Source: a virus
Length of the DNA: 64,000 nucleotides
Reading direction: 5' to 3' (one strand)
Virus record (IMG/VR): IMGVR_UViG_3300005471_000011
Coordinates: 40,108-104,107 of that record
In this document: piece by piece, positions 32,736 to 58,816 of the stretch
Layout: each line of letters opens with the position of its first letter
How positions within the stretch are numbered: the stretch's first letter is position 1
Made by a program: the position numbers and the translations under genes
Notes under the pieces: model-generated
The model's database searches: none
What the model saw: only the letters and a program-made list of their open reading frames with translations
Told to the model about the DNA's origin: nothing

Positions 32736-32960
32736 ATGGGCTGGTATCCGTGTGAGCTATGCAAAGGCAACGGGTGGGCGCTGAAGCCGGGCAAGGGCTG
32801 GTGGCACGTGCTGCTGTGGGCGTTGCACTGGGACATGGCGTCACCTTCGCGGACCCCTTGGATGCAATGCCCACACTGCAACGGCAGGGGCTACGAGCCG
32901 CCGCCGTGGACGGGAAGCAGGCCATTGCCTCCACCTCCACCGCCGAAGAAGTATGCCTGA
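32736..32960 (+). CDS. small DnaJ-type zinc-finger protein
   Basis: This 74-residue protein has CELCKGNG and CPHCNGRG, two CxxCxGxG units separated by a Trp-rich stretch, and ends in a proline run. AGGAAA lies 7 bases before the chosen ATG. It resembles the product at 6314-6475. Confidence 0.68.
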   Translation: MGWYPCELCKGNGWALKPGKGWWHVLLWALHWDMASPSRTPWMQCPHCNGRGYEPPPWTGSRPLPPPPPPKKYA

Positions 32961-33166
32961 TGCACGAGACGTTCCGGCGCTGGCAGGAGATCGGCGGCTT
33001 GGTCCGCGAATCTGGCTGCTTCGCCCTGGTGGACCGGATGGCTTTGCGGGAATATACCAACGTGGGCAGCTTGCAGCGTTGGCAGGTGATTGACGAGTCC
33101 CAGGAGTGGTATCGGACGTTTCGCAGCGCGGCGCAGGCAGCGACCTGCCTGGAGGATCAAACCTGA
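32960..33166 (+). CDS. hypothetical small protein
   Basis: This 68-residue, mainly helical protein (FRRWQEIGGLVRESGCFALV) is coupled to both neighbours by stop/start overlaps. Nothing identifies its function. Confidence 0.55.
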   Translation: MHETFRRWQEIGGLVRESGCFALVDRMALREYTNVGSLQRWQVIDESQEWYRTFRSAAQAATCLEDQT

Positions 33167-37990: not shown

Positions 37991-40633
37991 TTAGCGAGGC
38001 TTGCGATTTTTAGCCACTGCTTTTGGCGGCGGCATTTGTCGCTTCTGGATCTTTGGCAAGGAGCGTTTTCTTGTCTTAGCTGTTGCTTGCGGCGCTGACT
38101 CGGCCAACGGCGATGACCGCTTTGCCAGAACCTCCACGGGAATGTCGCTTTCGCTCACGCCTCCCATCGGCAACATTCTGGCGATTCCAGCGGTTAGCTC
38201 GCCAAGTTCTTCGATTGCGCTAACTTGCTGTCGCTTTAGCTCCCTAGCACGATCAAGAAGCGCAACAACCGTTTTCATCTGTGATTTTGTCTTCGGCAGA
38301 GCGACAACCATTTCAAGGAATCGTTTTTCTTTATAGCGATTGCGGCTTGTCTTCGTCGATCCGGTCGAAATTCGGTCCACTTCGTCAAGGTATTGCGGGC
38401 TGTTTAAGCAATGAACGACATACGACGACACCAACTCAGGTTCATCAACGTCCCCGCGCACGATGAAGGTTGGGAACTCGCCGGAAACATGACAGCCATC
38501 GTGCTCCGGCGGGACTACGGCGAATGAGCCACGGAAGGCAAACAGGCGATTGTAAATGACGCTGCCCGCGGAAACTTGATTCAGCTTGCTACCCTTAATC
38601 AACCGCCCTGACTTCTCCTCTCGGACGAAGGTGCCCAGCCCCCACCACTTTACCCCCAATACGCGATAGTGACGCTCCCGGTCAATCTTCTCCATGTGTT
38701 TAGTCTGAATGAACAATTCAGATAGCGCAACTGGCTGAGTTTCGAGGCCAGAGAATGCTATGCGAATATCAGCCAACGCTGATTTCAGGGCCGTGGTTAT
38801 CAGAGAAAGATGCCCCTCGACAGCGGCTACGTTGGTTGCAATTTCAGCATCGGTTGGCGGAACGACTGGCAGTCGCTTTCGGTAATACTCCGCATCCATG
38901 CGATCTTCGAGCGTGGCAACCCAGCTTTGCGGGTGCGCTTGACTCTTCTTTCCGCGCGAGAATGCCCTGTAGTCAAGTAGAACCTCTGGAAGTTGATTGC
39001 CGGCCACGGGAGCACCATTCGGCGCGTAGCCGCTGTTTTCAACCACCGCCATGAATGTTTCGCCCTGCGCCCCAGTCTCATCGACTTCGGGCTTCTTTTC
39101 CAAAAACAGAATGCTCGTCTTGGACCTCGCGTTGTAGCCTTCAAACGTAACCGCTGGCAAACTGACTATCCCCTTAATCCAGGCGTGCTGCTTGATGTAG
39201 TCGCGAACCTTAACCTTGCTGTCGTTGTTCAAAATGCCGTCGATTACGACAATGGCAACTGAGCCACCCGGCTTCACCAATCGCAAGCTACGCTCGACAG
39301 CTAGGATTACTCGATCTTGTTTGTGCTTTCTCCTGAGTTCATACCGACTCAAGATCGCGACATCGCTCTCGTATGACCCGAACGGTGGATTAGTGATGCA
39401 GAGATCGAATGTCCCCTCTTGGATTTTCCCCGGCACGTCCACTAAGCCATGATGCTTAACAATCCCAGCGCTGCCGTCCCCGTGGACGATCATGTTCATT
39501 TTGCAAGCCAGTGTCGTCCGCTCTTTCCAATCGGTTCCAAAAATGCAGCGATTTGATAGCTCGATTTTCCACTTCGATTTTTCATCCTCGCTGAACTCCT
39601 GAAGCCTGATTTTCTCGCTGACGACCTCAAAGGCATAGATTAGGAATCCGCCTGTCCCGCAAAATGGGTCGATGATCTTTTGGCCGATCTTCGGGTCAAT
39701 CGCGTCCACCATGAACTCGACTACATTACGCGGCGTGAAAAACTCTCCTAAGCCGCCAGTGAATGTGTCCCCAAGAAAATACTCGAACGCTTCGCCCTTC
39801 ACGTCGAACGCCGTCAGTGATAGGTCGTAGCCTTCAAACTGGCTTACGATGGTGCGAATTGTTCGATCATCTAGGGCGATATTGCTGTCAGGATCGAAGA
39901 GGTCGGAGAATTGCGGGTCTTCCTTGGTTTCTTGCCAAATCTGCTTGACGACGTTGACGCCCAGCTTCGCGAGCGTGTCATCGAATACCTTTGTCCGAAA
40001 CCGATTGGCGTCCCCCGGATGCGTTCGCTCTTCGTGCATTTTGCAGAAGAGCACCTTCGACATTTCGTCAAATGCCTTGGTGGGGTCATCGCCTTGGTTA
40101 TTCCGTATCTCGTTGTGGCAGGCGCGCAAGATCGACTTGAACGACTGCACGTCGTCGATGATGAAGAGTTCGTGTTTCGCCTCCAGCCGTAGCGATTCCT
40201 GCACTTCGGCGCTGACGACGAACTTTACAAAATCATCTGAGAGATCTCGCCTGTGCGGTAGATCTGCAAGCCGGTTTTTGCTAAGCGACTGATACACCCG
40301 CGTCTGGAGGCCGTTGGTAACGACCACTAGCGGCGCGATTCGCGGCAGCAGCCTTGCGTAAGAAATCGCCTGCTCAGTATCCCGGCGAATTAACGGTTCC
40401 CCTGGAGGCTTGGTTTCGCAAACGATTAGCGGCGTGGTCTTGGCGGTCGTCGTATAGACCACCGCATCGGCAAAAATCGTCTTTGTTTTGCGCCCCTCTT
40501 GGATCTCGATTGGCTTGTTAAAATCAATACAGTTCTGCTTGTATCCACGCAACCCCAGATAGGGAACAAGGAACTTGACCTTCACGTCCTCCTCGGACAA
40601 AAGATCATCGGGGGCCGGCAGAGAATAGGACAT
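37991..40633 (-). CDS. single-chain restriction-modification enzyme (nuclease + N6-adenine methylase + specificity)
   Basis: This 880-residue protein starts at the ATG with GAGGG upstream, overlapping the zinc-ribbon stop. Residues ~14-110 are an HsdR_N-like PD-(D/E)xK nuclease: Asp56 in IFADAVVY, Glu73-x-Lys75 in VCETK. Residues ~285-540 are an HsdM-type methyltransferase: FFTPRNVVEFM, motif I DPFCGTGGF (322-330) and motif IV NPPF (415-418). From ~640 a target-recognition half like HsdS follows (RVLGVKWWGLGTF, AGSVIYNRLFAFRGSF), and a basic tail ends it. No helicase motor is seen. This is a type IIG-like layout, expected to cut DNA and methylate adenine at one site. Confidence 0.86.
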   Translation of the reverse strand: MSYSLPAPDDLLSEEDVKVKFLVPYLGLRGYKQNCIDFNKPIEIQEGRKTKTIFADAVVYTTTAKTTPLIVCETKPPGEPLIRRDTEQAISYARLLPRIAPLVVVTNGLQTRVYQSLSKNRLADLPHRRDLSDDFVKFVVSAEVQESLRLEAKHELFIIDDVQSFKSILRACHNEIRNNQGDDPTKAFDEMSKVLFCKMHEERTHPGDANRFRTKVFDDTLAKLGVNVVKQIWQETKEDPQFSDLFDPDSNIALDDRTIRTIVSQFEGYDLSLTAFDVKGEAFEYFLGDTFTGGLGEFFTPRNVVEFMVDAIDPKIGQKIIDPFCGTGGFLIYAFEVVSEKIRLQEFSEDEKSKWKIELSNRCIFGTDWKERTTLACKMNMIVHGDGSAGIVKHHGLVDVPGKIQEGTFDLCITNPPFGSYESDVAILSRYELRRKHKQDRVILAVERSLRLVKPGGSVAIVVIDGILNNDSKVKVRDYIKQHAWIKGIVSLPAVTFEGYNARSKTSILFLEKKPEVDETGAQGETFMAVVENSGYAPNGAPVAGNQLPEVLLDYRAFSRGKKSQAHPQSWVATLEDRMDAEYYRKRLPVVPPTDAEIATNVAAVEGHLSLITTALKSALADIRIAFSGLETQPVALSELFIQTKHMEKIDRERHYRVLGVKWWGLGTFVREEKSGRLIKGSKLNQVSAGSVIYNRLFAFRGSFAVVPPEHDGCHVSGEFPTFIVRGDVDEPELVSSYVVHCLNSPQYLDEVDRISTGSTKTSRNRYKEKRFLEMVVALPKTKSQMKTVVALLDRARELKRQQVSAIEELGELTAGIARMLPMGGVSESDIPVEVLAKRSSPLAESAPQATAKTRKRSLPKIQKRQMPPPKAVAKNRKPR

Positions 40634-40791
40634 TATGCCCTCTTTGTCCCGGTAGGTTTCTTCGGCTTGTCCCAATAGGGGCTTTTGCAGTGCGGGCACA
40701 CTCGCGGATGTTCGTCCGGTTTCCGCGGAACCCATTCGTGAGAACATCGCTCACAACGATACCCCGGCACGGTGAGTTTGATTTTCGCCAT
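40633..40791 (-). CDS. zinc-ribbon protein upstream of the RM gene
   Basis: This 52-residue protein starts MAKIKLTVPGYRCERC and contains CERC, then CPHC 16 residues later, the spacing of a zinc ribbon, with a conserved-looking SPYWDKP after it. Its stop overlaps the RM start (TAATG), so the two are translated together. Small zinc ribbons in this position may regulate or tether the enzyme. It is too short to appear in routine gene calls. Confidence 0.72.
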   Translation of the reverse strand: MAKIKLTVPGYRCERCSHEWVPRKPDEHPRVCPHCKSPYWDKPKKPTGTKRA

Positions 40792-40913: not shown

Positions 40914-41921
40914 ATGAACGACCGCGAGCAACGTGGGTTGACAATCGCCGCACTGACGAAGTTGGTCCGCAAGGGCGGTATTTGGGTTGTGCCTTCACAA
41001 TCTGGACCAGCGAAATATACCGTTTGCCCAGATCCGATCAATCCCCACTGCACGTGCGCGGACCACGAAACCCGCGGCTGTAAGTGTAAACACATTTTCG
41101 CCGTCGAATTCGCGATGAAGCGCGAAGAGGCGGCAGACGGCACGGTGACGGAAACGCGGTCGATTACCCTGACTGAGAAGCGGACGACCTACACTCAGGA
41201 TTGGCCCGCGTACAATGCCGCCCAAACCACTGAGAAGGGCACGTTCCAGGTAATGCTCCGCGACTTGTGCAATGGAATACAGGAACCGCAGCAGGGGATG
41301 GGACGCCCTCGCATCCTGCTCCGAGATGCCCTCTTCGCAGCTTGCTTCAAGGTCTATTCCACGTTCTCAGGCCGGCGGTTTATGACCGACCTGAAAGAGG
41401 CGCACGGGGAAGGCCACCTAACCCGCTGCCCGTCGTACAATTCGATCTTCGCTGTTTTTGAATCGCCAGAGACCGATGGCGTACAGCTTCCCAAGCTGCT
41501 CGGAACGACGGCCCAGCGATTCACGGTCAAGGAGGTTTCTGCCGACTTAGCTTACTCGACTAACACGAACCTAGCGGAAGTGGACGCGCTCGGCGCGTCG
41601 CCAATGATCCCATTCAAGCGGAACGCGGTCGCCACATCCGGCGGCTTGTGGTCCAAGATGTTTCACTACTTTCAATTTCACCGCCAAGAATTTCTGAGCC
41701 GCTATCACCTGCGGTCGAATGTCGAGAGCACATTCTCTATGATCAAGAGGAAGTTCGGCGATTCGCTGCGGAGCAAGACTGACGTAGCGATGAAGAATGA
41801 AACGCTGGCCAAGCTGGTTTGCCACAACATTTGCTGCGTCATTCAGGAAATGCACGAATCGGGCGTCGATCCGACTTTCTGGGCAGATTCGGCAGTTGCC
41901 CAGAAAGGAGCCAACAACTAG
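40914..41921 (+). CDS. SWIM-finger DDE transposase, probably catalytically incomplete
   Basis: In this 335-residue protein the N-terminus has a SWIM zinc finger (CTCADHETRGCKCKH, Cys46, Cys48, Cys58, His60). The C-terminal DDE part has FTVKEVSADLAYST (Asp211), PMIPFKRN and LRSNVESTFSMIKRKFGDS (Glu271), matching IS4-type transposases. The segment that should carry the first catalytic Asp (usually a DSTGF-like motif and ~70 residues) is absent between IFAVFESPE and TDGVQLPKLLG. The reading frame is intact, so this looks like an in-frame internal deletion. Confidence 0.85.
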   Translation: MNDREQRGLTIAALTKLVRKGGIWVVPSQSGPAKYTVCPDPINPHCTCADHETRGCKCKHIFAVEFAMKREEAADGTVTETRSITLTEKRTTYTQDWPAYNAAQTTEKGTFQVMLRDLCNGIQEPQQGMGRPRILLRDALFAACFKVYSTFSGRRFMTDLKEAHGEGHLTRCPSYNSIFAVFESPETDGVQLPKLLGTTAQRFTVKEVSADLAYSTNTNLAEVDALGASPMIPFKRNAVATSGGLWSKMFHYFQFHRQEFLSRYHLRSNVESTFSMIKRKFGDSLRSKTDVAMKNETLAKLVCHNICCVIQEMHESGVDPTFWADSAVAQKGANN

Positions 41922-51267: not shown

Positions 51268-51801
51268 ATGGAAGGTGCGACTAGAGAAGCGGTAATGGAT
51301 CATCCGCCAGTCCGAGATAATTGGTTTCAAGCCGTCCGTAGAGCCTTCAGCGCGCAGGTCAAGCCGTTTGCCGGCAAGCCGATCACCTACGTCGAAACGG
51401 GCTGCTGGTGCGGAGCCTCTGCGGAGTGGGTCTGCCAGAATCTGCTGACGCACCCAGATGCCTGCGGCTATGGCATCGACCCGTGGGTATCGATGGGCGG
51501 CAAGCACGACCAGAAACGCATGGATGAGATCGCGGCGTATGCTGACTTCGTGCTGGCGTTCCCGCATTTGAAGGTCGGGTCACTGGTCATCTGGGACGAC
51601 TACGGTATCGCGCTGCGCAAGCCGGACCATCCGATCCCTGACGTAGCGGCGGCGGTGGAGTCGATCATGCACTCATTCAAGATATTCCTGGAGCAGACCG
51701 GGCAGGGCAAGCAGTTCTACGCGCGAGTGGTGCGCAAACCGGAGCTGGGGCGGTATATTGGTCCCGAAGAAATTCTGCAAGGAGCACGCGATGCCGGTTG
51801 A
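51268..51801 (+). CDS. short methyltransferase-like protein, possibly internally deleted
   Basis: In this 177-residue protein TYVETGCWCGASAEWVCQNL is motif I and YGIDPWVSMGG the second strand. The protein then goes almost directly from KHDQKRMDEI to VLAFPHLKVGSLVIWDDYG. Full-length relatives have about 50 residues there, including the IDG-x-H motif seen at 51791. The loss is in frame, so the product may be a pseudoenzyme. A further partial methyltransferase pattern follows. Confidence 0.62.
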   Translation: MEGATREAVMDHPPVRDNWFQAVRRAFSAQVKPFAGKPITYVETGCWCGASAEWVCQNLLTHPDACGYGIDPWVSMGGKHDQKRMDEIAAYADFVLAFPHLKVGSLVIWDDYGIALRKPDHPIPDVAAAVESIMHSFKIFLEQTGQGKQFYARVVRKPELGRYIGPEEILQGARDAG

Positions 51802-52516
51802 AGTGCCGCCGCTGGAGTTGACGCCCGGCGAGTATTCTTACTCCCACGATTGGTTCGAGCGGGACTACGGCTCCAAGCCGCACCTGAAGCGAGAAAGCAC
51901 TCGGCAGCTCTACGAGCGGCTGCTGCTGCCGCAGAAGAACAAGATTCGCCGGATACTTGAAATAGGAATTTCCGAGGGCCGCAGCGTCGTCTGGTTCCTG
52001 CAAACAATGCAACCAACTGAATGGCTGGGAATCGATCCTTGGTTACCGGGGCGTTGGGAAACTTATCAGCCGGAGCATCGGCGCCGAAGGTTCTGGCACA
52101 ACATGGGCGTTCTTGCTGGGGTCCAAGAACTCGTTGGCTTTCCACGCAAGGCAGATTACGGACTGCCTCGCGAAACATTCCGGCTACTCGATTGCCACTG
52201 CGCCGTCGCCTGGGCGAGGAGCCAGGAATATCTTCAGCACCAATACATACAGGACTACGGCAAGGAGAAATTCGACCTGGTCATTATCGACGGATTACAT
52301 CATGGATGGGGGGCGCTTACAGACGCGGTGCTCTCGTTCGGCATCCTGCGCAACGGCGGGTTGATCATCTTTGACGACACCCATCGTCGTTGGCAGCACG
52401 GCAAGGCGCACGTCCACGAGGCGGTCAACGGCTTTCACATGGGCTTTGAAGGATGGGTGAGACGCGAATTCGAGAACGGCCGACAAACTTGGCTGCGTAA
52501 AATCAGGGATACGTAA
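51791..52516 (+). CDS. class I SAM-dependent methyltransferase
   Basis: This 241-residue protein has AAGGAGC 7 bases before the chosen ATG. RRILEIGISEGRSVVWFLQ is motif I, EWLGIDPWLPG the second strand, and FDLVIIDGLHHGWGALTDAV with LRNGGLIIFDDTH the catalytic core of the Methyltransf_24 group. Compared with its neighbour at 51268 it keeps the IDG-H region. The substrate is unknown but probably sugar-linked given the context. Confidence 0.78.
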   Translation: MPVEVPPLELTPGEYSYSHDWFERDYGSKPHLKRESTRQLYERLLLPQKNKIRRILEIGISEGRSVVWFLQTMQPTEWLGIDPWLPGRWETYQPEHRRRRFWHNMGVLAGVQELVGFPRKADYGLPRETFRLLDCHCAVAWARSQEYLQHQYIQDYGKEKFDLVIIDGLHHGWGALTDAVLSFGILRNGGLIIFDDTHRRWQHGKAHVHEAVNGFHMGFEGWVRREFENGRQTWLRKIRDT

Positions 52517-52847: not shown

Positions 52848-52921
52848 CGTGGGGTGGAGCAGCCCGGTAGCTCGCGAGGCTCATACCCTCGAGGACGGCG
52901 GTTCAAATCCGCTCCCCACAA
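52848..52921 (+). tRNA. tRNA-fMet: initiator tRNA-fMet (CAT anticodon)
   Basis: This is a 74-nt cloverleaf: acceptor CGTGGGG/CCCCACA, D stem GAGC/GCTC, anticodon stem CGAGG/CCTCG around CTCATAC (anticodon CAT at 52882-52884), T arm GGCGG-TTCAAAT-CCGCT. Position 1 is C facing A72, an unpaired end found in bacterial initiators, and the D stem has A11-U24, a second initiator mark. The third mark, three G-C pairs at 29-31/39-41, is only partly kept: A29-U41 replaces G-C. CCA is not encoded. The 248 bases that follow hold no convincing gene. Confidence 0.93.
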
Positions 52922-53169
52922 CTTGCCGCGATCTCCCGCGGATAATCACGTCCAGGAGACAAACGAGCCAATAGACAAAATTCGAGCGCTGGCCCGGTCT
53001 GTGGGTAGTCAATCCCGCAGTCATCCACTTGCGAATATCAGCGGCCTTCTTTGGCCCACCTGGACGGACGTCGTAGGGGAGAGGGAGAGCTGGGCCGGTG
53101 CTCGTTTTGCGCGCAGAGCCAGCGAAGCCTCACGCGAGCTTTGAGCCACGGACTGAAGGAACGACGGCT

Positions 53170-53925
53170 ATGGACGTCGGTGAGCGCCAGGCTGGCGCAG
53201 ACGGTAGGCGATTCGTAATCATCGGCATGGACGCTTTTAAGGCGATCAGCCAAGTCGGCCATTCAGGATTCTGCGTGCTGGCAGCGCTCAACTCTTATGC
53301 GGACCAGCACGGCCGCTGCTGGCCTTCCCTGGAGCGATTGGCAGCCTTGACGTGCCTGAAAAAGCGGGCGGTCCAGAACGCTCTTGGAAAGCTCAGGAAA
53401 GCCGGTCTGGTGTCCTGGAAGCCGCATTATACCGGCAATCTAACCCAGACTTCCAATCACTACTTAATCGCGGTCAATGCCCTACCGTTGGTAGGGCGCA
53501 CCAAAATGCGCGGGGAGGGCGCACCGGAGTGCGCGGGGAGGGCGCACCAAAATGCGCCCGAACTAGACCAGGGTGAACTAGACCAGGGTGAACTAGAAGT
53601 GATTGACCATGTAAATGTCTTTGTTTCTTGTGAAGACTGGCAAGCGAAATTTAATGAATTCGTTTCCATGCTGCCGCGTCGCGCCGCGCCGGAGGACCGG
53701 GCGTTTGTTGGCCAGCTTGCGTGGCTGCTGAAATCTGGGGCCAATATCTGGCCGAAGATCCGTGACGCATTCGCCGGTGTCAAAGCGTGCCGGCCAAGGC
53801 ACCCGGTCGCCTATCTGCGGACGATCCTCAACGGCACGGTCGGTGAGGAGACGCTGAAGGCAATGCTGCGCCGAGCGCCGAGCTATGACGAATCCCGACG
53901 TCAACTTAAAGGAGCAGTCGCCTGA
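53170..53925 (+). CDS. replication initiation protein, lambda O-like (HTH_36)
   Basis: In this 251-residue protein, residues ~20-95 are a winged helix of the HTH_36 type: FCVLAALNSYADQHGRCWPS, LERLAALTCLKKRAVQNALG, LRKAGLVSWKPHYTG. A Gly/Glu-rich linker encoded by DNA iterons follows, and then a helical C-terminal domain (AFVGQLAWLLKSGANIWPKI) that could contact the helicase. The DnaB gene follows with a stop/start overlap. This is the O/DnaB order of lambdoid replication modules. The start was set where AAGGAA precedes ATG. Confidence 0.82.
   Translation: MDVGERQAGADGRRFVIIGMDAFKAISQVGHSGFCVLAALNSYADQHGRCWPSLERLAALTCLKKRAVQNALGKLRKAGLVSWKPHYTGNLTQTSNHYLIAVNALPLVGRTKMRGEGAPECAGRAHQNAPELDQGELDQGELEVIDHVNVFVSCEDWQAKFNEFVSMLPRRAAPEDRAFVGQLAWLLKSGANIWPKIRDAFAGVKACRPRHPVAYLRTILNGTVGEETLKAMLRRAPSYDESRRQLKGAVA
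53495..53660 (+). other. candidate replication origin inside the O-like gene
   Basis: Three iterons of the form GGCGCACC-NNA/AA-TGCGC start at 53495, 53518 and 53541, exactly 23 bp apart. Each is a near-palindrome (GCGCA...TGCGC). Then come two full copies and one partial copy of GAACTAGACCAGGGT (53560, 53575, 53590). An AT-rich stretch with TGTAAATG and AAATTTAATGAATTC lies at about 53608-53662. The 23-bp period is not a multiple of three, so the copies are read in three frames, which points to selection on DNA. Confidence 0.82.
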
Positions 53926-55370
53926 TGCAACCAAACGGCAAAGTTAAAACAAACGGCAAGCAGAATGGAAAACAGAACGGCGCATCGCCAGTTGCCGAGT
54001 TTCTTGAGCGACAGCAACCGTTCGACCTCAAGGCGGAGTGTTCGCTGCTCGGCAGCGTGATCCTGATGAACGAGGCTATCGATGAGACGTCGCTGATCCT
54101 CAAGGCGGAAGACTTCTACGACGATGCCAATGAAAAAATCTACCGCCAGTTCCTTAAGCTCCACGACGAAGGCAAGAAGATCGACAGCACGCTGCTCGTT
54201 GACCGACTGAAGAAGGACGGGGACTTCGAGGCCATCGGCGGCGCGGCGTACCTGTCCAAGCTGATCAACTGCGTGCCCAACGCGGCGCACGCGGCCTATT
54301 ATGCCGAGATCATCCGGGACGCGGCGGTGCTGCGCAAGATCATCCTGCGGTCCACGGAGCTGCTGCGCGACGCTTACGACCGGGCATGCGAGCCGGCGGA
54401 CCTCGTCGGCATGGCGGAGAACTACTTCGCGGAGATAGCCGAGCAGGCATTGAACTTGAACGTTGAGCCAGAAAACTTCGGGCCGGTAATGATGCGATCC
54501 CTCGCCGAACTGGAAAAGCGCATGAGCGGCGAGTCATCGCTTGGCGTAGCATCTGGAATTCACAGATTTGATGACATCGTGGGCCTGAAGGCAGGGGCTA
54601 TGACGGTGATCGCTGGAAATAGTTCAATGGGCAAGTCAGCTTGTGCCGGCGGAATTGCGGTTCACGTTGCCAAACACTCGCACGGCGCGGTCCTGTTTGT
54701 CAGTTTAGAGATGACCGAGTTGGAAATGACTGACCGCGTGCTCGCGGCAGAGGCTCGCGTGGAATACTGGCGCATGACCAACGGAACACTCAGCACGGAC
54801 GATCGCCAGCGGATCGTTGAGCAAGCGAACGCTCTGAGCAACATTAAATTATTCATAGAAGATTCGCCGGGCATGACGGTATCGCAGATCGCGGCGCAAG
54901 CGAGGCGCATCAAACGCAAGCACGGGCTTGCGTTGCTAGTGGTCGATTACATCGGACTCGTCGAGCCAGACAATCCGAAAGACAACCGGCAGGAGCAGAT
55001 CGCCAAGATAAGCCGGAAGCTTAAGATGATGGCAAGAGAACTGAGCGTCCCGGTGATTTGCCTTGCGCAGCTCAATCGAAATGTTGAAAACGCCAAGGAT
55101 TGCAGGCCGCGCCTGTCACATCTGAGGGAATCGGCAGCAATCGGCCAGGACGCCGACAACGTGCTGTTCGTCCACCGTCCCAAGTATTACCTACGCGAGA
55201 TGCCAAGCGACGGCAGCGGGGAGGAGGCGGAGATATTGCTGGCCAAGGCGCGCAACGCGCCCACGCGGGAGATCAAGATGCTGTGGTTCGGCAAGTGGAT
55301 GCGGTGGGAGAACCCGGCGTCTCCGCAGCACCAGAATTTTAGCGCGCCGTACAGCGACGGAGGGTTCTGA
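53925..55370 (+). CDS. dnaB: replicative DNA helicase, DnaB family
   Basis: This 481-residue protein has a Lys/Asn/Gly-rich N-terminal tail, then the DnaB N-terminal domain (KAECSLLGSVILMNEAIDET), and the RecA-like motor with Walker A GNSSMGKS (231-238), LFVSLEMTELEMTDRVLAAE, Walker B LALLVVDYIGLV, and the late QLNRNVE and LRESAAIGQDADNVLFVHRP. All are DnaB hallmarks; the Walker A wording GNSSMGKS deviates slightly from the common GRPSMGKT. It unwinds DNA at the fork as a hexamer, presumably loaded by the preceding protein. Confidence 0.95.
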   Translation: MQPNGKVKTNGKQNGKQNGASPVAEFLERQQPFDLKAECSLLGSVILMNEAIDETSLILKAEDFYDDANEKIYRQFLKLHDEGKKIDSTLLVDRLKKDGDFEAIGGAAYLSKLINCVPNAAHAAYYAEIIRDAAVLRKIILRSTELLRDAYDRACEPADLVGMAENYFAEIAEQALNLNVEPENFGPVMMRSLAELEKRMSGESSLGVASGIHRFDDIVGLKAGAMTVIAGNSSMGKSACAGGIAVHVAKHSHGAVLFVSLEMTELEMTDRVLAAEARVEYWRMTNGTLSTDDRQRIVEQANALSNIKLFIEDSPGMTVSQIAAQARRIKRKHGLALLVVDYIGLVEPDNPKDNRQEQIAKISRKLKMMARELSVPVICLAQLNRNVENAKDCRPRLSHLRESAAIGQDADNVLFVHRPKYYLREMPSDGSGEEAEILLAKARNAPTREIKMLWFGKWMRWENPASPQHQNFSAPYSDGGF

Positions 55371-57876: not shown

Positions 57877-58428
57877 ATGGCAATGCGACTCTACGATGCC
57901 AGCGAAGCAGGGGCGGACGGTTATCCTCTGGCGTGGCACGAGACGATCAAGCACCTTGTGCGTCAGCAAGCAGGCAATCGCTGCGTCCGCTGCAAGCACC
58001 CATATCAGAACGGCGAGCACTGGCGCGGTGAGTGGACGCCTTGCGATGAGCAATGCGAGCATGCCGGGCCATTCAGATTCCGGCGAGGCGTTTCCAGTGA
58101 GTGGATACTGCGAGAAATATCGAAGCCAAATAACTTTACGCGGCTTGAAGCTCAGTGGCGAATCTTGACCGTTCATCATTTATCCGGTCAGAAATTAGAT
58201 TGCCGCTGGTGGAATCTTGCGGCGCTTTGCCAGCGCTGCCATCTAACGATCCAAGGTCGAGTCAAGATGCACCGCCCGTGGTTGCTCGACCACTCAGAAT
58301 GGTTCAAGCCTTACGTCGCTGGCTATTACGCTTGGCAATTTCTAGGCCAGGAGTTAGCCCGCGAAGTTGTCCTTGAGCGTCTCGACGAGTTGCTGCTTCT
58401 TGGTCGCGGTGGGGTGGTCCATGCCTGA
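57877..58428 (+). CDS. HNH endonuclease
   Basis: In this 183-residue protein CVRCKH near residue 35 gives the first metal-binding pair. ILTVHHLSGQKLDCRWWNLA and ALCQRCHLTIQGRV form the HNH core (His-His, Asn, Cys-x2-Cys-His). Such stand-alone HNH proteins serve in packaging, recombination or mobility. No terminase lies beside it, so a DNA-processing role with the RusA-like gene next to it is possible. Confidence 0.82.
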   Translation: MAMRLYDASEAGADGYPLAWHETIKHLVRQQAGNRCVRCKHPYQNGEHWRGEWTPCDEQCEHAGPFRFRRGVSSEWILREISKPNNFTRLEAQWRILTVHHLSGQKLDCRWWNLAALCQRCHLTIQGRVKMHRPWLLDHSEWFKPYVAGYYAWQFLGQELAREVVLERLDELLLLGRGGVVHA

Positions 58429-58816
58429 TTCCCTGACCATCACGATCCCCATGCCGCCAGAGGCAACACATCCCAATTCCAGGCCAAGCTTGCGCCTGCT
58501 CATGTCCTCCAAGAAGAGCCAGCGCAGCGACGCACATTTGGCAGCGCTGGCCGATATGCAGGCCCAGAACCTGGAGAAGCCTCACTGGCAGCGGGCGACG
58601 ATCCAGGCGACGTTCCACAAGCCGAGCAGGCGGGCTCGCTTGCATGACCAGGACGGGATTACCGCGTGGCTGAAGGCGACGGCGGACGGAATTCAGGACG
58701 CAGGCGTGGTCGCGGACGATTGTGGGTTGGTGTGGTTGCCACCGGTGCAGATACTCGGTCCTACGGCTGGGCCGAAGCCAAAGGTGGTGATCGTGGTCAC
58801 TGAAATCAAGGAGTAG
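58421..58816 (+). CDS. rusA: RusA-like Holliday junction resolvase
   Basis: In this 131-residue protein LTITIPMPPEATHPNSRP is the usual opening strand. RLHDQDGITAWLKATADGIQ and DAGVVADDCG contain the acidic set (Asp77, Asp79, Asp99/100) and Lys85 that bind metal in RusA. It would cut recombination junctions before packaging or during replication. The start overlaps the HNH gene. Confidence 0.82.
   Translation: MPDSLTITIPMPPEATHPNSRPSLRLLMSSKKSQRSDAHLAALADMQAQNLEKPHWQRATIQATFHKPSRRARLHDQDGITAWLKATADGIQDAGVVADDCGLVWLPPVQILGPTAGPKPKVVIVVTEIKE

Follow-up and report, generated by a model that had tools for sequence, protein, structure and literature searches.

In bacteriophage lambda, the initiator protein O binds inverted-repeat iterons that lie within its own gene, and two iterons together with an AT-rich tract make up the minimal unwinding unit (PMC7466680). 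The lambda iterons, four in number and arranged at 20/24/23 bp, are located midway along gene O, the AT-rich tract is positioned toward the next gene, and the gene adjacent to O encodes the helicase loader P. Phage P22 also has its origin inside the initiator gene (annotated rep_origin at 32840–32984 within gene 18); its iterons, at 20/24/23 bp, fall in different reading frames, and the next gene encodes the phage DnaB. HTH_36 proteins encoded beside cI have been described for Stx phages, with iterons not mentioned (PMC8951638). In a literature search that covered few subscription journals, we found no paper describing the architecture of HTH_36 origins.

Here we analyze a stretch of 64,000 nucleotides (the window), which corresponds to positions 40108–104107 of a 104,107-bp virus record. 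Judging from its sequence and from a comparison with relatives, the locus described below is very probably a phage replication origin situated inside the gene of its own initiator, an O-like protein with an HTH_36 domain. As in lambda, inverted-repeat iterons lie in the central part of the initiator gene and an AT-rich tract is found toward the next gene; the window has three iterons and an extra 15-bp repeat, whereas lambda has four iterons, and the HTH_36 protein is followed by DnaB, whereas O is followed by P. An initial annotation had assigned the locus to the lambda plan. The in-gene iterons and the AT-rich tract agree with that assignment, but the helicase itself, and not a loader, is encoded next, so that P22 18/12 is a closer model than lambda O/P. 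The window has, like P22, an origin (here a probable one) inside the initiator gene, a phage DnaB as the next gene and a change of reading frame between iterons, whereas the iteron sequences differ and host and phage are unrelated; the likeness is one of gene order and in-gene origin. The in-gene plan is already known, and the pattern that accompanies HTH_36 origins, a rule connecting recognition helix to iteron together with a second repeated element, is the more interesting part.

Results

Anatomy of the initiator gene and its surroundings

The initiator matched the HTH_36 profile (PF13730) with an E value of 2.1e-13 and a score of 50.3 bits, compared with a curated cut-off of 25, and its matches among PHROG families, with E values of 5e-13 to 1e-11, were to replication initiation proteins and O-like proteins. 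No sequence relative of the HTH alignment was found in the PDB. The ATG at 53170, which is preceded by GAAGGA, is more likely to be the start of the protein than is the GTG from which the gene is delimited in Table 1.

Table 1 Features of the putative origin and of associated replication genes (window coordinates).
Feature	Position	Strand	Description
O-like replication initiator gene	53098..53925	+	275 aa from GTG 53098; PF13730 and PHROG matches
HTH_36 DNA-binding domain	53269..53412	+	PF13730 match coordinates; recognition helix CLKKRAVQNALGKL
Iteron 1	53494..53511	.	GGGCGCACCAAAATGCGC; GCGCA-N6-TGCGC
Iteron 2	53517..53534	.	GGGCGCACCGGAGTGCGC; GCGCA-N6-TGCGC
Iteron 3	53540..53557, arms reaching 53559	.	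GGGCGCACCAAAATGCGC; GCGCA-N6-TGCGC
Second element, 15-bp direct repeat	53560..53597	+	GAACTAGACCAGGGT, two copies, plus GAACTAGA (8 bp); similarly placed counterparts in Margaery, L206/L227/L278 and L374
AT-rich stretch, probable unwinding region	53589..53668	.	65% AT in a 41% AT genome
DnaB-type replicative helicase	53925..55370	+	PF03796 E 4.7e-79, PF00772 E 1.2e-29
RusA-like Holliday junction resolvase	58367..58816	+	phrog_34 E 5e-11; same early cluster as the initiator

A tRNA-Met (CAT) gene is present immediately 5' of the initiator gene (window 52848–52922). In the region adjoining the putative origin (window 47895–52516), a radical SAM protein (PF04055) is encoded along with three Methyltransf_24 proteins, an unusual cargo next to a replication module. 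A metalloprotease-like protein, identified by weak matches, is encoded at window 49971–50717, and its N-terminus, FEQLEKRDTPA, is one that we take to be similar to the start of planctomycete surface proteins.

The three near-palindromic iterons were located where the initial annotation had placed them, with a period of exactly 23 bp. Their arms, GCGCA and TGCGC, are invariant in all three copies, with variation being confined to the spacer (CCAAAA, CCGGAG and CCAAAA in order), and the arms of iteron 3 lengthen to 7 bp. The pattern GCGCA-N6-TGCGC occurs at these three sites and at no others in the 104,107-bp record, and the self-match score of the region was 24, the highest score among 1000 codon shuffles being 11. 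The copies fall in three different reading frames, and the translation of the open reading frame contains the peptides that had been assigned to them initially (RTKMR, APECA and HQNAP). Given that the iterons of lambda and P22 are also read in different frames, this property is ordinary.

The AT-rich stretch that had been noted after the repeats ranks second among the 80-bp segments of the record by AT content. The top-ranking segment, at approximately 40809, lies between two divergent genes, at window 37991–40747 (minus strand) and 40914–41921 (plus strand). The former encodes a 918-aa protein with N6 DNA methylase and HSDR_N_2 domains, and the latter, which is the next gene, a DDE transposase. 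Cumulative GC skew, proposed initially as a check on the origin, rose steadily through the record with no change of direction at 53.5 kb and so lent no support to an origin there, although it is a weak test in this case because the genes are mostly on one strand. The whole window contains no DnaA box (TTWTNCACA).

This anatomy suggests how the locus might operate. The O-like protein would bind the three palindromic iterons through its HTH_36 domain, and, with the iterons 23 bp apart, or about two helical turns, the bound proteins would be placed roughly on one face of the DNA. The bound complex would strain and open the AT-rich DNA immediately downstream, a step that we infer may be aided by the 15-bp GAACTA repeats, and DnaB from the next gene would be loaded at the opened DNA without an adjacent gene for a loader of the lambda P type.

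Palindromic iterons in relatives of the initiator

No close relatives of the O-like protein or of DnaB were found in viral contigs, nor were any of the O-like protein found in genome contigs, and conservation was therefore tested on distant relatives alone, with approximately 30–50% identity in the HTH. Collection of HTH_36-like O genes from named phages and viral contigs yielded 86 non-redundant genes, 83 of which were long enough for analysis. A palindromic iteron array that outscored 20 codon shuffles was present immediately after the HTH in 60 of the 83 genes. Palindromic iterons were likewise detected in 18 of 19 testable genes of a held-out set, compared with 4 of 150 control open reading frames from the same loci. 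In 52 of 59 relatives, the 80 bp following the iterons were richer in AT than was the remainder of the gene, with means of 48.6% and 41.0%, respectively. DnaB was the next gene in 31 of the 84 loci examined, including the window. In phi297, a near match for DnaB, the upstream replication gene has no comparable palindrome array, and the layout is therefore not universal among DnaB-linked initiators.

In MD8, PotUPM1, phiV10 and mEp010, phages of the Pseudomonas and coliphage group with HTH_36 O-like initiators, the HTH_36-type domain is directly followed, as in the window, by palindromic iterons, which are arranged at 16–24 bp (23/22/23 in mEp010 and its relatives) and then give way to short repeats of the GAACC/AACC type. 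A P-type loader comes next in MD8 and phiV10, in place of the DnaB of the window. For several mEp010-like loci (L013, L014, L015, L018 and L022, as well as L016, L017 and L026), the long open reading frame gave no HTH-profile hit or the open reading frame was short, at about 130 codons, whereas the tblastn match spanned the complete protein; a split or frameshift may separate the HTH-encoding portion of the gene from the remainder at these loci.

The repeats might instead serve as an operator through which the O-like protein regulates the transcription of either its own gene or dnaB, with replication starting elsewhere. A protein able to read the sites could also act as a repressor, and plasmid iteron initiators often autoregulate. 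However, the sites are situated approximately 320–400 bp into the gene, away from its promoter, an AT-rich tract follows them here as well as in most relatives, and their in-gene position is retained in the two sets of relatives described above (60/83 and 18/19), as it is in lambda and P22. A role restricted to transcriptional control is thus improbable, and an origin within the initiator gene remains the preferred reading.

Spacing of iterons and covariation with the recognition helix

Adjacent iteron spacings in the first set (n = 196) formed clusters at 16–17 bp (26 at 16 and 47 at 17) and 21–23 bp (21 at 21, 62 at 22 and 29 at 23), corresponding to about one and a half and two helical turns, respectively. 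The spacings of the window (23 and 23) are within this range, whereas its spacer is N6 rather than the N5 found in most relatives. Multiples of three were under-represented, with 88 of the 196 spacings leaving a remainder of 1, 78 a remainder of 2 and 30 a remainder of 0 on division by three; the corresponding values for the held-out genes (n = 70) were 29, 34 and 7. Such spacings, unlike those of a protein repeat, are mostly not multiples of three, which indicates that the repeats are kept as DNA, so that the argument from reading frame that had been made for the 23-bp period of the window alone is valid for the family.

One residue of the recognition helix tracks the sequence of the half-site. 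Glutamine was associated with [CT]GCA in 34 of 35 genes, and all 9 genes with arginine had GGCA (Fisher p = 1.4e-8, a value that is too small given that the genes surveyed are related to one another). Arginine was found in several different helix backgrounds. All four held-out genes with arginine had GGCA or CGGCA, and arginine together with GGCA was also found in L206, L227 and L278, which had been identified by DNA pattern. The window, with glutamine and the half-site CGCA, conforms to the rule as judged by eye, the automatic count having taken only N5 spacers and thus not having scored its N6 sites.

These observations also bear on the idea that the repeats are a feature of the protein alone, a disordered, duplicated linker that joins the HTH to the COOH-terminal part and has no role as DNA. 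The encoded peptide is indeed rich in Pro, Gly and Ala, resembles a linker and separates two parts of the protein, but a period of 23 bp yields three different peptides, the spacings of relatives avoid multiples of three (30/196 and 7/70), and the half-sites follow the recognition helix, which leaves this idea scarcely credible and again favors DNA sites for the initiator.

A search of all viral contigs with the iteron pattern of the window returned 11 loci, 8 of which (7 distinct genes) lay within an HTH_36-like domain or shortly 3' of one, some of these domains being weak profile matches only. A corresponding search of bacterial genomes yielded many matches in Pseudomonas without an HTH_36-like gene, but also one in Planctomycetes bacterium syqfu, where a single gene has four such palindromes at 22 bp. 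The planctomycete match (L443) and the protein beginning with FEQLEKRDTPA provide a hint of a planctomycete host. Formation of RNA hairpins by the palindromes, as a terminator or for translational control in the O-dnaB transcript, is highly improbable given that, even though a short stem of 5–7 bp is conceivable for each iteron, the conserved arms are just 3–5 bp in most relatives, no T run follows, the covariation is with a DNA-binding helix, and the pattern by itself finds HTH_36-like genes.

A second repeated element after the iterons

The 15-bp direct repeat proved to be real, consisting of GAACTAGACCAGGGT twice plus 8 bp and being found nowhere else; the GAACTA triple at period 15 has a single occurrence in the record. 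Given that 15 is a multiple of three, this repeat is uninformative about frame. Among the 60 HTH_36 genes, 48 (L005–L191; for example, L110, L102 and L058) contain repeats of AACC[AG]T[CA]A directly 3' of the iterons, with 119 copies in 5.6 kb of post-iteron DNA compared with 5 copies in the remaining 46 kb of gene DNA. The AACC cores are mostly spaced at 10–12 bp and make use of all three frames, and the sequence is near-constant across genes while the iterons vary. The element is thus common, but, being missing in 12 of the 60 genes, it is not defining. No AACC[AG]T[CA]A repeats at 10–12 bp, the usual form in the Pseudomonas and coliphage group, follow the iterons of the window, which instead has GAACTAGACCAGGGT, with GAACTA at period 15, a minority form.

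In Microbacterium phage Margaery (gp51), as in L206, L227 and L278, this minority form also comes directly after the palindromes, and L374 has GAACCAGACCAAGGA at period 15, with 12 of 15 positions identical by eye to the unit of the window. These five loci share with the window an HTH_36-like domain and palindromes at 22–23 bp. The iteron half-sites of Margaery gp51, L206, L227 and L278 differ from those of the window, whereas those of L374 do not, and no DnaB gene was seen immediately adjoining any of the five. It is plausible that the AACC[AG]T[CA]A form and the period-15 GAACTA form are one element. A search of viral contigs for three tandem units of GAACTA-N9 recovered mostly low-complexity coding repeats, and, with just 4 of the 80 loci kept being near an HTH_36-like gene, the pattern by itself is not diagnostic.

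Discussion

The initial interpretation of the locus as an in-gene iteron origin, with repeats kept for their DNA sequence and an AT-rich unwinding region, is well supported by comparison with other phages, whereas the P22 18/12 plan is closer than the lambda O/P plan to which the locus had been assigned. Nor are the sequences unrelated to those of other systems, as had been stated: CGCA is the half-site usually associated with HTH_36 proteins that have such a recognition helix, and counterparts of the 15-bp repeat occur in other viruses.

We tentatively suggest that HTH_36-type phage origins might constitute a distinct two-part class, a reading that we regard as possible rather than probable. 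In such a class, the iterons would change in step with the recognition helix and would be accompanied by a near-constant, strand-oriented GAACC/GAACT repeat that has a period of 10–12 or 15 bp and is in many cases read in different frames.

The layout that has long been familiar from phage lambda thus recurs in many phages with an initiator from another protein family. For the phage studied here, the probable origin is narrowed to approximately 180 bp, and the protein that would read it is named. For many other phage genomes, a combination of features (an HTH_36 gene, palindromes at 16–17 or 21–23 bp, GAACY repeats and an AT-rich tract) provides a recipe for finding the origin, and a rule based on one residue links initiator to iteron in a manner that can be tested. 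If the two-part class is real, the near-constant repeat would point to a second recognition step, carried out either by the initiator, acting on single strands, or by a component of the host or the helicase, and this step would be common to phages of very different hosts.
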